Assembly (NCBI GenBank): GCA_944383955.1
Contig: CALWRP010000093.1
Location: 1 to 41,929, forward strand
From: an uncultured Clostridia bacterium
GTDB lineage: Bacteria; Bacillota; Clostridia; Oscillospirales; Acutalibacteraceae
Length of the DNA: 41,929 bases
Reading direction: 5' to 3'
In this document: positions 37 through 3,928 of the stretch, piece by piece
Position numbering within the stretch: the first letter of the stretch is position 1
Layout of the letters: every line of letters begins with the position of its first letter
Notes under the pieces: model-generated
Databases searched by the model: none
Told to the model about the DNA's origin: nothing
Seen by the model: the letters and a program-made list of their open reading frames with translations, nothing else
Made by a program: the position numbers and the translations under genes

Positions 37-1034
37 TCAGTAGGCCGCGCTGCCGTCCTGCGCGAAGGAGAAGGAGGACGCCTCCGCCGCCTCGCGCGTC
101 AGGCGGGAATAGACAGTGTATTCCTCCCTGCCGATCGCGTAAAGCGGGACCAGCTCGGCCTGCGCCCCGTCCGCCGTTTCGCAGACGAAGCAGGCCTCCC
201 CCGCCCGGGCGCGGCGCAGAGCCTTCTCCGGGCCCTCCTCGCGCAGAGCGGGCAGAGCCGCCCTGCCCTTCTGAGCAAGAAGCACGTCGCCGCAGAGCAC
301 GGCGGCGCGGGTCCCGTCGTCCGGCAGAGGCAGAAGGGAGATCGGAGAGGAGAGCGTGAGGGCGAGCACGTCCCCGTCCTTCCATTCGCGCTCCAGAACG
401 GCAAAGCCCTGCACACAGGTCAGGGCAGCCGGCTCCCCGTTCACCAGGGCGGCGGAGACGCGCTCCGCGCGCAGCAGCAGCCGGAGAGAAGCGGGCCGCT
501 CCGTCCGCACGGTGACGCGGGCCGTATCGCCGTCCGGATAGGCAGTCTCCAGCGTCAGCGTGACGCCGCGCTCCCACAGGCAGGCCCGCGAGGGGATGAA
601 GAGGTTCAAAATCAGGCTGGTCTCGCTCTCGTCCGTCAGCCAGAGGTTCTTCTGCAGCTCGCTCATGGCCTCCACGCCGGAGGCAGTGCAGCACCAGAAG
701 GTGTCGTATGCCCCGCTGAAGCGCTTGCGCACGCCCGCAGCCCGGCAACGACGGCCTGCGTCTGCCTGCGCAGGCGCTCGTCTCCGTCTGCGTAAGCGAA
801 GCGGGCGCAGGCCGAGAGGAAATGGCCGGCGAAGTGGCCGCGCACGCCGCAGTCCGGGCTCTCCCAGCCGCCGAGCGGCTCCGCCTCCGAGGGAAGGCCG
901 GCGTTCAGGCGGAACGAATGGAGCAGCCGGTCTGTGTCGAACGAGGCCAGATACTCCCGCACGAGCTCCCGGCGCCGGCAAAACTCGCCGCCGAGGAGGG
1001 AAACATCGCGGATGGACAGACTGTGAAACATCAT
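37..1034 (-). pseudogene. GH127 (DUF1680) glycosidase, internally deleted and frameshifted
   Basis: Two pieces of one GH127/DUF1680 (beta-L-arabinofuranosidase-type) protein lie in different frames. The N-terminal piece starts at the ATG ending at 1034, 5 nt after a GGAGG site, with the family-typical opening 'SIRDVSLLGGEF'. It runs about 100 residues through 'GWESPDCGVRGHFAGHFLS' to near 725. There the reading jumps to another frame that begins 'FSGAYDTFWCC' and continues as the C-terminal beta-sandwich part to the stop at 37. Full-length members have roughly 600-650 residues, so about 250-300 residues of the central (alpha/alpha)6 catalytic barrel are missing. In characterised GH127 enzymes a Glu/Cys pair in that lost region and the retained Cys-Cys pair bind the zinc, so the product should be inactive. 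Family assignment is from motif recognition. A sequencing or assembly collapse is a less likely explanation. Confidence 0.8.
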
Positions 1035-1086
1035 ACACTCCTCCAGAGGCCGCCCTCATGGCGGCCTGTTCCTTTCAGCAGATCAG

Positions 1087-1098
1087 CATCGCGTCGCC
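1087..1098. repeat. Left direct repeat (displaced queA 3' end)
   Basis: CATCGCGTCGCC matches 2906-2917 exactly. Read on the minus strand it lies in codons for G-D-A-M-L-I-C followed by TGA, the usual QueA C-terminus. The codons before it (…YPVRL) are unrelated to QueA. Confidence 0.65.
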
Positions 1099-1154
1099 CA
1101 ACCTCACGGGATATAGGATGGACACTTTGCATAAACACGCATTTCGATTCCGTA

Positions 1155-1171
1155 AGCCCTTGATTTCAAGG
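1155..1171. repeat. Left inverted motif of the islet
   Basis: AGCCCTTGATTTCAAGG. Its inner part is almost self-complementary. The reverse complement of 2846-2861 is AGCCCTGATTTCAAGG, the same motif with one base missing. It could be a recombinase binding arm. Confidence 0.5.
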
Positions 1172-1265
1172 CTTTGGGAGAGTTACGATTTGGCCAGCCT
1201 TGATAAGCCTTTATGGGCTCGGGATTTGTTTTTGTGCCTTCATGTGGGAAATGATTGCCAAACTT

Positions 1266-1298
1266 AAAAGCCCGGTAGAAATCATTTACCGGGCTTTT
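1266..1298 (-). terminator. Bidirectional terminator after the islet operon
   Basis: A perfect 12-bp stem (AAAAGCCCGGTA / TACCGGGCTTTT) with a 9-nt loop. The A-rich 5' arm and T-rich 3' arm let it work on both strands. It sits 10 nt downstream of the stop of the XRE-type gene. Confidence 0.85.
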
Positions 1299-1308
1299 AA
1301 GGCCAGTC

Positions 1309-1617
1309 TCATCTGGTGATCAGGCGGGTCACCAGAGAGCTGTCGCTCTCAAGCAGATAGAGCAAACGCTGGGCAGCGCCAGAAGGGATGTTCTTCCCTG
1401 CTTCCCATGCTTCAACGGTCCTGGTGGACACTCCGAGGGCCGAGGCCAGGCCGCGCTGGGACAGGTTGAGGGCCGCTCGAGCCCTGGCGACATCCGTGGC
1501 ACCGTACTCCGGCACCGGGATCTCCTTGACGACGGCCCGACAATGTGAGTGCTCTCCGCTTTTGAACGCAACAGCTTCTTCTGCGCCGCTTTTCCGTTCT
1601 TCAAAAAAGCTGTTCAT
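1309..1617 (-). CDS. XRE-family helix-turn-helix protein (NadS/HigA-like antitoxin or repressor)
   Basis: 102 residues. The C-terminal half holds a Cro/C1-type helix-turn-helix at about residues 52-75 (LSQRGLASALGVSTRTVEAW), followed by the 'G..IPSGAAQRLL' tail typical of HigA/NadS-type antitoxins. The N-terminus (MNSFFEERKSGAEEAVAF) also matches that group. Such proteins usually sit next to a RelE/HigB toxin and repress their own operon. Here no RelE/HigB gene is present; the gene is third in an operon with a Panacea protein and a MazF-like protein. AGGAG lies 7 nt before the ATG, and the gap to the preceding gene is 10 nt. Likely roles are operon repressor or an additional antitoxin (inference). 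Confidence 0.85.
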   Translation of the reverse strand: MNSFFEERKSGAEEAVAFKSGEHSHCRAVVKEIPVPEYGATDVARARAALNLSQRGLASALGVSTRTVEAWEAGKNIPSGAAQRLLYLLESDSSLVTRLITR

Positions 1618-1627
1618 GGCATATCTC

Positions 1628-2062
1628 CTATGTATTCAGCTCCAGGATCTCCTGCTGGTTCATGTAGACGTTCTTCGCCTCGTCGATCTCATGGGTCGCA
1701 TGGTAGTCCCGGTACGCCCGCAACACATCGGCGAGTTTCACGGCACTCAGCTTATCCTTCTGCCGGCGAAAGCGCTCCAGACCAGAAAAATCTTCCACCT
1801 GAAGGGTGTTGTCGAGCTGAACATAGCTATCTTTGTCGATAACTGTCTCCGTTGGGTCCGTGGAGTAAATCACCTTGTTACTCCGGCGGAACGCCTTCCA
1901 CTCCTTGCCCTTCAGGGAGTCAATCTGGGCAATCTCGACTACCTCCAGGTCTTCTTCAAGGTCCACCACCAGATACGGATGGGCTGACCGTGCAACGTCT
2001 CCGTGGTTGTTGAAGCGGACCTTCAGGGCAAGGACCTGCCCGACTTCAATATCACTCTTCAT
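1628..2062 (-). CDS. Putative MazF/PemK-like toxin partner of the Panacea protein
   Basis: 144 residues, starting at an ATG that overlaps the TGA of the Panacea gene (ATGA, 2059-2062), so the two are probably translationally coupled. The first half has the look of the MazF/PemK-type beta-barrel: 'VGQVLALKVRFNN', a stretch like the fold's RP-V/L-VV strand (SAHPYLVVD), and 'IAQIDS'. The second half is charged and helical. I do not recognise a named family and cannot see a certain catalytic residue. Operon position beside a Panacea antitoxin makes it the likely toxin, by analogy with PanAT pairs in which Panacea proteins neutralise unrelated toxins. A longer reading from 2182 would overlap the Panacea gene for 120 nt and is rejected. 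Confidence 0.7.
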   Translation of the reverse strand: MKSDIEVGQVLALKVRFNNHGDVARSAHPYLVVDLEEDLEVVEIAQIDSLKGKEWKAFRRSNKVIYSTDPTETVIDKDSYVQLDNTLQVEDFSGLERFRRQKDKLSAVKLADVLRAYRDYHATHEIDEAKNVYMNQQEILELNT

Positions 2063-2553
2063 CCGCACATCCGCTCCATCAATCGGAGAACATCGCTGTA
2101 CTGCACACGGTACTCCTCCGCATACATCAGAGAGTCCATCCGCTGCTCCCGCTTGGAATACCCAGTGTGCTTCTTCACCCACTCGGGGTCTTCGTGCGAA
2201 ATCTCAATGAGTTCATCAAGCGGAGCATCTTTCAGCATCACATAGAGCTTATCCAGGAAGTCAACAATATCCTCCGGCAACTCCGGCTTCACGGCTTTTG
2301 TGAGCAGGATCGCATACTTCTCCTGCACCTCCGGCGCAACCGCACCGTTGTCATAGGCATACAGGTCTTCAGCGAACAGCTTTTCTCCCGTCTTCGCAAT
2401 ATATACATTCTGCGCCATATGCAAAAACTTGTTGAGCTTCGCATTACCTTCGTAGAAGGTCCTTCCATTCATGGTGACGAGCTTCTTATTGAACAGCTCA
2501 CCATCCTCATCTTTGCTCAAGAAGTATTTTGCAACCTGAATCACATTCAACAT
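2059..2553 (-). CDS. Panacea-domain (DUF4065, SocA-like) protein, probable antitoxin
   Basis: 164 residues covering one Panacea domain. Visible family features are 'VAKYFLS' near the N-terminus, 'KLNKFLHMAQNVYI', the 'LYAYDNGAVAPEVQEKY' segment corresponding to the conserved W.yGPV.p.v motif, and 'EISHEDPEWVKKH', the typical IS.H..p.W signature. Panacea proteins are known as antitoxins for many unrelated toxins (PanAT systems) and include the proteolytic adaptor SocA. It is the first gene of a three-gene operon with its own promoter, and a perfect AGGAGG lies 7 nt before the ATG. The downstream gene overlaps its stop. Its base composition is clearly more AT-rich than the surrounding chromosome, which fits recent acquisition. 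Confidence 0.85.
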   Translation of the reverse strand: MLNVIQVAKYFLSKDEDGELFNKKLVTMNGRTFYEGNAKLNKFLHMAQNVYIAKTGEKLFAEDLYAYDNGAVAPEVQEKYAILLTKAVKPELPEDIVDFLDKLYVMLKDAPLDELIEISHEDPEWVKKHTGYSKREQRMDSLMYAEEYRVQYSDVLRLMERMCG

Positions 2554-2603
2554 CGCAATACCTCCTCATGTTTCGATAAATTCAGTCTTCCTCTTGCACC
2601 TTC

Positions 2604-2632
2604 ATTCTATACTATTCAATCGTAGTTTGCAA
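2604..2632 (-). promoter_or_regulatory. Sigma-A promoter of the Panacea operon
   Basis: On the minus strand TTGCAA (2627-2632), a 17-nt spacer and TAGAAT (2604-2609), about 50 nt before the Panacea start codon. Short GTGCA/TTGCAC words around it could be an operator for the XRE protein, but the symmetry is weak. Confidence 0.65.
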
Positions 2633-2642
2633 GTGCACGGAC

Positions 2643-2674
2643 AAAAAAGCCGGGCCCGCAAACGCAAGGCCCGG
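2643..2674 (-). terminator. Terminator for leftward transcripts from queA
   Basis: A 7-bp CCGGGCC/GGCCCGG stem with an 11-nt loop, followed on the minus strand by six T. It lies inside the islet, between queA and the TA-like promoter. Confidence 0.75.
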
Positions 2675-2845
2675 TCGCTCTTACTGCTCATACTGCTTCC
2701 TCTGCTTTTCTGCTTCCTCCTTTGGGCAATATTCCTGCATAATAAATTGTATTTTTTAATCAATATAGGCTCCAAAGTTTCGGCAAGGATGGGCATTTGG
2801 AGGCCATTCCAGGCCGCCTCCCCCCTGCTTCTGAAGACCGAACCC

Positions 2846-2861
2846 CCTTGAAATCAGGGCT
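2846..2861. repeat. Right inverted motif of the islet
   Basis: CCTTGAAATCAGGGCT, the reverse complement of the left motif at 1155-1171 except for one missing base. Confidence 0.5.
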
Positions 2862-2893
2862 TTTTCGGGCTTTTGCTCCGAAACCGGCCTCCT

Positions 2894-3928
2894 TTAACCA
2901 ATGAACATCGCGTCGCCGAAGCTGAAGAAGCGGTAGCGCTCCTCGACGGCCACGCGGTAGGCGTTCATGGTGTGGTCGTAGCCGGCAAAGGCGGACACCA
3001 GCATGATGAGCGTGCTCTCCGGCAGGTGGAAGTTGGTGATGAGGCCGTCGAGAACCTTGAAGGTGTAGCCGGGATAGAGGAAAATGTCCGTCCAGCCGCT
3101 GCTCTCGCGGACACAGCCCTCGCGCGTGCCGATGGTCTCGAGCGTGCGGCAGCTCGTCGTGCCCACGGCGATGACGCGCTTGCCCTCCGCCTTCGCCGCG
3201 TTGATGAGGGCGGCGTTCTCCGCCGTGAGGGCGTAGTGCTCGGAGTGCATCCGGTGCTCGGCGATATTCTCCACCTTCACGGGGCGGAAGGTGCCCAGGC
3301 CGACGTGCAGCGTCACAAAGGCGATGCGAACGCCCTTTTGGCGGATGCGCTCCAAAAGCTCGGGCGTGAAGTGCAGCCCGGCTGTGGGGGCCGCGGCGGA
3401 GCCCCGCTCCCGCGCGTAGACGTTCTGATAGCGCTCCTGGTCCTTGAGCTCCTCGGTGATATAATGCGGCAGCGGCATGGTGCCGACCCTGTCGAGCAGC
3501 TCATAGAAATTGCCGCCTTCATACGAGAAGCGCAGCAGGCGGTTGCCGCCCTCGAGGACGTCGAGCACCTCGGCCCGCAGCAGGCCTTCGCCGAAGACAA
3601 AGCGGGAGCCGGGCTTCGCGCGGCGGCCCGGCCCGGCCAGCGCCTCCCAGTCGTCGCCCTCGCGGTGCGTGAGCAGAAGGAACTCCACATGCGCCCCCGT
3701 GTCCTCCTTGACGCCGAAGAGACGGGCGGGCAGGACGCGGGAATCGTTGAGCACCAGGCAGTCGCCGGGCTCAAGGTAGTCCGCTATTTCATAAAAATGG
3801 TGATGGGAGAGCGCGCCCGTGCGCCGGTCCATCACCAGAAGACGGGAGGCGTCGCGCGGCTCTATCGGGGTCTGCGCGATCAGCTCCTGGGGCAGATCGT
3901 AGTAGAAATCACTCGTTTTCATTTCCAT
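2894..3928 (-). CDS. queA: S-adenosylmethionine:tRNA ribosyltransferase-isomerase
   Basis: 344 residues, full family length. QueA transfers and isomerises the ribosyl part of SAM onto 7-aminomethyl-7-deazaguanine in tRNA to give epoxyqueuosine. Visible signatures are the N-terminal '[25 protein letters not shown]', '[11 protein letters not shown]', '[13 protein letters not shown]', '[10 protein letters not shown]', and the C-terminal '[14 protein letters not shown]'. The first ATG (3928) is chosen because AAGGTGAG lies 11 nt upstream; an ATG two codons later is possible. The last codons coincide with the right direct repeat of the islet, so the present 3' end may be element-derived. No tgt or other queuosine gene is adjacent; the divergent neighbour is the lysine operon. 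Confidence 0.95.
2906..2917. repeat. Right direct repeat within the queA 3' end
   Basis: CATCGCGTCGCC, identical to 1087-1098. It encodes part of the conserved GDAM of the QueA C-terminus, with the stop four codons on. Confidence 0.65.

Follow-up and report, generated by a model that had tools for sequence, protein, structure and literature searches.

A recombinase-less islet of toxin-antitoxin-type genes at the 3' end of queA in an uncultured Clostridia bacterium, probably the remnant of a large serine recombinase element

We describe a small islet at the 3' end of queA in an uncultured Clostridia bacterium of the family Acutalibacteraceae, contained in a stretch of 41,929 nucleotides (assembly GCA_944383955.1, 92.7% complete; contig CALWRP010000093.1, positions 1 to 41,929), hereafter the window. 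The queA gene (2894-3928, minus strand) is intact (PF02547, 5.4e-145; NCBIfam PRK00147 and TIGR00113), and its last 24 bases read GDAMFIG-stop. A second, detached queA end at 1075-1098 on the same strand reads GDAMLIC-stop and is preceded by nothing QueA-like. Both ends contain an identical 12-bp core (1087-1098 and 2906-2917), the two copies being 1819 bp apart and set in a wider repeat with 19 of 23 bases matching (1082-1104 and 2901-2923), and in the window genome the pattern GGNGAYGCNATGNTNATNNNNTRA has just two matches, both at this locus. An earlier interpretation made from the letters alone (the sequence-only reading) had noted that the last codons of queA occur twice in the same orientation around about 1.8 kb of more AT-rich DNA; the core confirms the former and base composition the latter, with a GC content of 0.47-0.57 within the islet versus 0.66-0.71 in the genes either side. 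As a bare repeat the duplication is unexceptional (8th of 32 direct-repeat families within 5 kb), and it stands above chance because of its position, frame and recurrence. Read as the attachment half-sites of an integrated element, attL (2894-2923, minus strand) would comprise the queA body, the core and an element-type right half, and attR (1075-1116, minus strand) a left half of the type expected in an element's own attachment site (attP; 1099-1116, TATCCCGTGAGGTTG), the core and the old queA 3' end.

Between the half-sites, a Panacea/SocA-type antitoxin gene of 164 amino acids (2059-2553, minus strand; PF13274, 1.2e-8; phrog_1281, 1.7e-16) overlaps by 4 bp a partner gene of 144 amino acids, a putative toxin (1628-2062, minus strand; phrog_13386, 4e-11). 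The partner gave no match in Pfam, PADLOC or NCBIfam, its structure model was poor (mean pLDDT 51.8), and comparison with solved structures yielded no convincing relative (best E 0.008 over 30 positions). PMC8832971 describes PanAT pairs as two-gene operons of a Panacea-domain antitoxin and a variable partner; the pair in the window likewise forms a two-gene operon, one gene of which encodes a PF13274 domain, and by analogy the 144-amino-acid partner is probably a toxin. It shares the operon plan of PanAT but differs in that the partner has no Pfam match, toxicity is putative and a NadS-like gene follows. This last gene (1309-1617, minus strand; NF041265, 2.5e-14; phrog_2104) encodes a helix-turn-helix (HTH) antitoxin, has no toxin gene of its own and adjoins attR; with 53.3 bits against the NF041265 cut-off of 60, it is named NadS-like only. 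The Panacea gene and its partner were also paired in seven other loci (L038, L039 and L042-L046), and the Panacea gene stood alone within the stretch examined in L041 and L040. Searches with the Panacea gene matched 4 of 200 family genomes (the window genome included, one match weak), and searches with the partner gene matched 5 loci in genome contigs and none in viral contigs.

Recurrence of the arrangement was assessed by searching GGNGAYGCNATGNTNATNNNNTRA in 280 family and 137 order genomes (9 common to both sets, 408 distinct). Matches were obtained in 131/280 and 78/137, respectively, and in 7 of the 9 shared genomes, giving 202/408 distinct genomes; the reversed pattern matched nowhere in either set. 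Two or more same-strand queA ends were present in 8 genomes (G000, that of the window, G107, G145, G100, G036, G376, G384 and G401), a lower bound, the pattern being strict. QueA precedes the first copy in all eight, and the later copies lack it. Copies outside the window are spaced 713 bp apart in G107, 119 in G145, 174 in G100, 5355 in G036, 1009 in G376, 154 in G384 and 183 (three times) in G401. Recognised genes occur in the islets of four of the eight genomes, all four carrying toxin-antitoxin-type genes: besides the window, G107 has RelB/DinJ and YafQ, G376 only a RelE and NadS-like pair, and the 5.4-kb islet of G036 HicB-like, ParE-like and Imm11 genes, two unmatched open reading frames (ORFs) and a fragmented recombinase. 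No gene was recognised by inspection, without a family scan, in the units of G145, G100, G384 and G401. At L245 (1493-2065, in G401) a run of four queA ends spaced 183 bp apart encloses three similar units.

The same pattern matched 60 stretches in viral contigs. Genuine queA ends accounted for 22 of them, some being near-identical pairs (L204/L239, L222/L230), and at 53-948 bp past each of the 22 lay a convergent large serine recombinase (LSR) match, 41-67% identical to an LSR of 572 amino acids. Because a convergent LSR gene follows in 22/22 queA-preceded matches, the queA 3' end is regarded as the host attachment site (attB) of these recombinases; the protein of 572 amino acids contains Resolvase, Recombinase and zinc-ribbon domains (PF00239, PF07508, PF13408). 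At 8 further sites without QueA an LSR lay within 480 bp (L238 and L241 being near-identical); the other 30 stretches had no LSR that near and were taken mostly for chance. L231 and L200 share the same right half and an equally scoring LSR, the left half being of queA type in one and non-queA in the other, and they appear to be one element caught with both kinds of left half. The sequence-only reading had anticipated larger recombinase-bearing elements using this site; they exist, and the recombinases found there with LSR queries are LSRs and not of the tyrosine type it had suggested.

The most complete example, L199, is a viral contig of 5435 bp in which a queA end (attL), an LSR ORF of 587 amino acids, a RelE/NadS-like pair and attR all lie within about 5.1 kb, along with ORFs that resemble repressors by appearance; its attR has the CCCGT half-site motif. 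Its RelE-like and NadS-like genes were named from similarity to G376, the two RelE proteins being 49% identical, and the L199/G376 cargo genes had no match (E<=1e-4) in the other viral loci searched. The attR-proximal NadS-like HTH protein of L199 is 36-37% identical to those of the window and G376, the window protein being 36% identical to each of the other two, and in all three the NadS-like gene is the last recognised one before attR, at 210 bp in the window, 154 in L199 and 61 bp in G376. In another viral contig (L184), a ParE/RelE-like gene (PF05016, 2.9e-10) lies between the queA end and the LSR, at 242-484 from the queA core.

The sequence upstream of the core in the detached copies is unlike QueA, and several carry a motif in a common register: ATATCCCGT in G000 and G401, and TCCCGT in G384, L200 and L227. 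A weight matrix of 18 positions trained on eight other islet copies placed the window left half 4th of 83,824 window positions, and 3rd once viral sites joined the model, with the queA body scoring below zero. The combined pattern TCCCGTN7GGNGAYGCNATG occurs once in the window, in 0 of 100 shuffles, and in 36 stretches of viral contigs. Among these, GDAM is accompanied by an LSR match in L199, L200, L257 and L277 (that of L199 being 3.2 kb off at the other element end and that of L277 partial) and by an early stop, with no LSR in the stretch examined, in L227 and L281, and L269 has a distant recombinase match only; the remainder were taken for chance.

For the other half-site, a right-half model was built from 10 of 26 viral LSR junctions, picked after inspection. 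The window attL scored 12.4, compared with a best score of 10.4 and a next of 6.8 in 25 relatives, and the model supports the window without being general. These relatives are the 29 loci L003-L031 minus 4 without the expected SF/SL residues, taken with 1.5 kb downstream for most and 2.9-11.4 kb for five; in none of the 25 was there a second queA core downstream of queA with a half-site score >2. At L028 (G009) queA is single-copy and the bases downstream (TATAAAGGATG) resemble an LSR-type right half with a score of 10.4, possibly a scar. The 80 bp past the window queA stop were also aligned to the LSR junctions and judged against mononucleotide shuffles (n=300): z reached 11.0, compared with 2.9 for the best of the relatives, and 8 of the 26 junctions beat all 300 shuffles. 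The DNA following queA in the window thus resembles LSR-element ends.

In a rival account, the queA end was tandemly duplicated by an ordinary duplication or homologous recombination and unrelated DNA was then inserted. The shortness of the repeat, with its 19 of 23 matching bases, would suit such an origin, but no QueA-like remnant lies upstream of the detached core, where instead the half-site motif common to several copies begins; the same site is used by LSR elements, and the arrangement recurs in eight genomes. We consider this account highly improbable.

The detached copy is probably the original queA end, its sequence after the core being close to the queA end of the congener G005 (CTGATTCTCTGAAA versus CTGATCTGCTGAAA), and the last codons of the present queA (GDAMFIG-stop) appear to be derived from the element. 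Past attR lies a GH127 gene (37-1034, minus strand; PF07944, PF20736) split over two frames (663-1034 and about 38-745), the break around 740 being either a frameshift or an assembly error. Its ORF 663-1034 (PF07944) begins about 40 bp beyond the detached queA end, close to where the sequence-only reading had put it; its description as the ancestral neighbour was not supported, no GH127 match being found within 2.9-11.4 kb downstream of queA in five congeners. Nor was the postulated empty site, joining the queA body to the remnant-side DNA and GH127, found beside queA in these five.

An inverted motif near each islet end (1158-1171 and 2846-2859) is complementary at 13 of 14 positions (93%). 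The motif noted in the sequence-only reading is thus there; a role in marking the ends of the element is doubtful, the queA-side copy lying at the place of an LSR-element hairpin. The hairpin in the window (2838-2872) runs on the plus strand through 2846-2859 into CTTTTT and has the orientation expected of the terminator of a convergent gene facing queA, which would be the lost recombinase. A CCCT..TTTCAAGG hairpin stands 34 nt past the queA stop in the window and 32-33 nt past it in L204, L222 and L232, and it follows the queA stop in none of the 25 relatives. Since the queA-side motif shares this position with the hairpins of three viral LSR elements, it is read as an LSR terminator region and is probably no end-recognition motif. 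The fold itself is weak (z -1.3).

The paired motifs could also be the recognition ends of an insertion made by a tyrosine recombinase or a transposon, and their near-perfect complementarity close to both ends speaks for it. Against this, the same 5 kb contains 24 inverted pairs, this one included, the motif is also found beside tRNA genes in other genomes as well as near the queA end of the three viral LSR elements, and the recombinases beside the queA site are LSRs, though only LSR queries were used. We give this origin almost no credence. Searched as AAGCCN{1,3}TGATTTCAAGG, the motif matched 4 of 300 family genomes (control 0), and a slightly altered pattern matched 49 stretches of viral contigs, near chance by a rough, uncomputed guess. 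Matches outside the window were mostly hairpins past tRNA genes, with one within a gene. The tRNA-side matches were considered as mobile-element ends and dropped, the adjoining ORFs looking chromosomal (by appearance, without a family scan).

Further hairpins were recorded in the islet and elsewhere. A GC-rich hairpin followed by a T run (2638-2680, minus strand; fold -20.2 kcal/mol, z -1.9), absent from the terminator-scan sites, may shield the cargo from queA transcription, and a 15-bp perfect hairpin at 1263-1301 (z -5.0), likewise not called by the terminator scan, is possibly a terminator. The left copy of the inverted motif (1154-1171, plus strand) is like the motif near tRNA 3' ends elsewhere. 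On contig G000:C192 of the window genome, a double hairpin of 139 bp (L102, 3490-3628) lies directly 3' of a tRNA-Ser gene; similar sequences, mostly of 30-130 bp, occur in 46 of 300 family genomes, many behind tRNA genes of various kinds. They share a conserved AATTTTGATAC, and a second hairpin resembling TTGATTTCAAGG is often present. At L157 (G105:C12, 5957-19351) about 13 kb extend from a tRNA-Ala gene to a TCCACCA-hairpin copy and end in an apparent serine recombinase gene (by appearance); this may be a further element that uses the 3' end of a tRNA gene.

From the sequence comparisons above, the islet is very probably the remnant of an integrative element, phage or phage-like, inserted by an LSR at the queA 3' end. 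LSR-driven integration would have split the site inside GGCGACGCGATG; queA would have gained a new last stretch brought by the element (attL), and its old last stretch would have been displaced downstream, behind the other half-site of the element (attR). The recombinase gene, which in intact elements lies beside attL and points at queA, would have been lost later together with most other genes, leaving the Panacea antitoxin and partner cassette and the NadS-like antitoxin beside attR, with addiction as the presumed reason why toxin-antitoxin cargo survives. The duplication, the half-sites, the LSR elements at the same site, the similarity of the ends and the islet with a broken recombinase in a relative are observed, and from them we infer the direction of change, that is, collapse. 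An LSR element, an islet with LSR fragments, a toxin-antitoxin islet and a scar form a plausible series, ordered across lineages and not along one. The idea of a small recombinase-less segment that is bounded by a duplicated queA end and rebuilds the gene is supported. The islet is inserted at the queA 3' end with attL and attR like an LSR integrative element, although the half-site motif is not universal; it has no LSR gene, and was thus classed as a derivative and not as an autonomous element.

Several observations weigh against this origin. G107, G145, G100, G376, G036 and several viral sites have the CCCGT half-site motif in altered form or not at all; a left-half model made from viral sites alone puts the window only 29th of 83,824; the islets of G107, G036, G376 and G401 score below zero on the right-half model; and 18 of the 26 LSR junctions do not surpass all 300 shuffles against the window. 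Terminator-like sites in the region number 2, versus 2.1 expected from shuffles, and this origin does not account for the left inverted motif. The window islet yielded no recombinase relic (best tblastn E 0.08); a search of 117 relatives at E<=1e-60, run without a positive control, turned up no LSR of this type, and the three PF07508 matches of the window genome are only 22-28% identical to the queA-type LSR. No empty site from the same species was found.

The islet might instead have arrived as it is, as a minimal unit of attP and toxin-antitoxin cargo integrated in trans by the LSR of another queA-targeting element. The four gene-bearing islets that retain two queA ends without an intact recombinase would fit such a cassette, as would the 119-183 bp units in which no gene was recognised, three of them in succession in G401, but the G401 repeats may be plain tandem duplication. 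The LSR fragments of G036 and the LSR of L199, with like cargo beside attR, fit loss in place, and the window retains DNA like an LSR-element end after queA. DNA searches of 300 family genomes with the islet's own ends gave no second copy, returning besides itself only matches of 25-37 bases. Arrival in trans is therefore judged improbable, and the evidence favours a decayed LSR element over a still mobile islet.

CIME-type islands are att-bounded islands without a recombinase. The islets described here are alike in having both attachment halves, no recombinase and retained cargo; they differ in their size of 0.7-1.8 kb, in cargo that is nearly only toxin-antitoxin genes and in their occurrence in three genomes at one site. 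Genomic islands at trmE and dusA are reportedly large and equipped with tyrosine recombinases. Those at trmE share with the present islet a target at the 3' end of a tRNA-modification gene; here the recombinase is an LSR and the gene is queA. PMC8409611 concerns genomic islands at these two sites, trmE and dusA. LSR prophages and integrative elements, according to PMC10083194, have a site-specific attB in a gene, a short identical core and the LSR beside one end; the window islet is alike in the attB within a gene and the short core but differs in that the LSR is gone and the target is the queA 3' end. The name queA does not occur in the main text of PMC10083194 or in that of PMC6907783, and no paper in the open-access literature was found to report, by title or abstract start, LSR or integrase attachment at queA. 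A tRNA-Leu adjoining tgt and queA appears in PMC2647930.

A wider proposal, which we hold tentatively and think rather unlikely as a whole, is that the queA 3' end serves as a common dock at which LSR elements have time and again shed all but their toxin-antitoxin genes, the pair punishing complete loss. The surviving islets would keep queA working and occupy attB against the next queA-targeting phage, and some might still be moved in trans as recombinase-less toxin-antitoxin cassettes. Addiction-based persistence, exclusion of phages by site occupancy and movement in trans are put forward as hypotheses. The queA 3' end gives an attB/attP set for a group of LSRs, and the apparent natural decay series at one fixed site could be used to test whether the last remnants of a mobile element persist because addiction modules hinder their loss.

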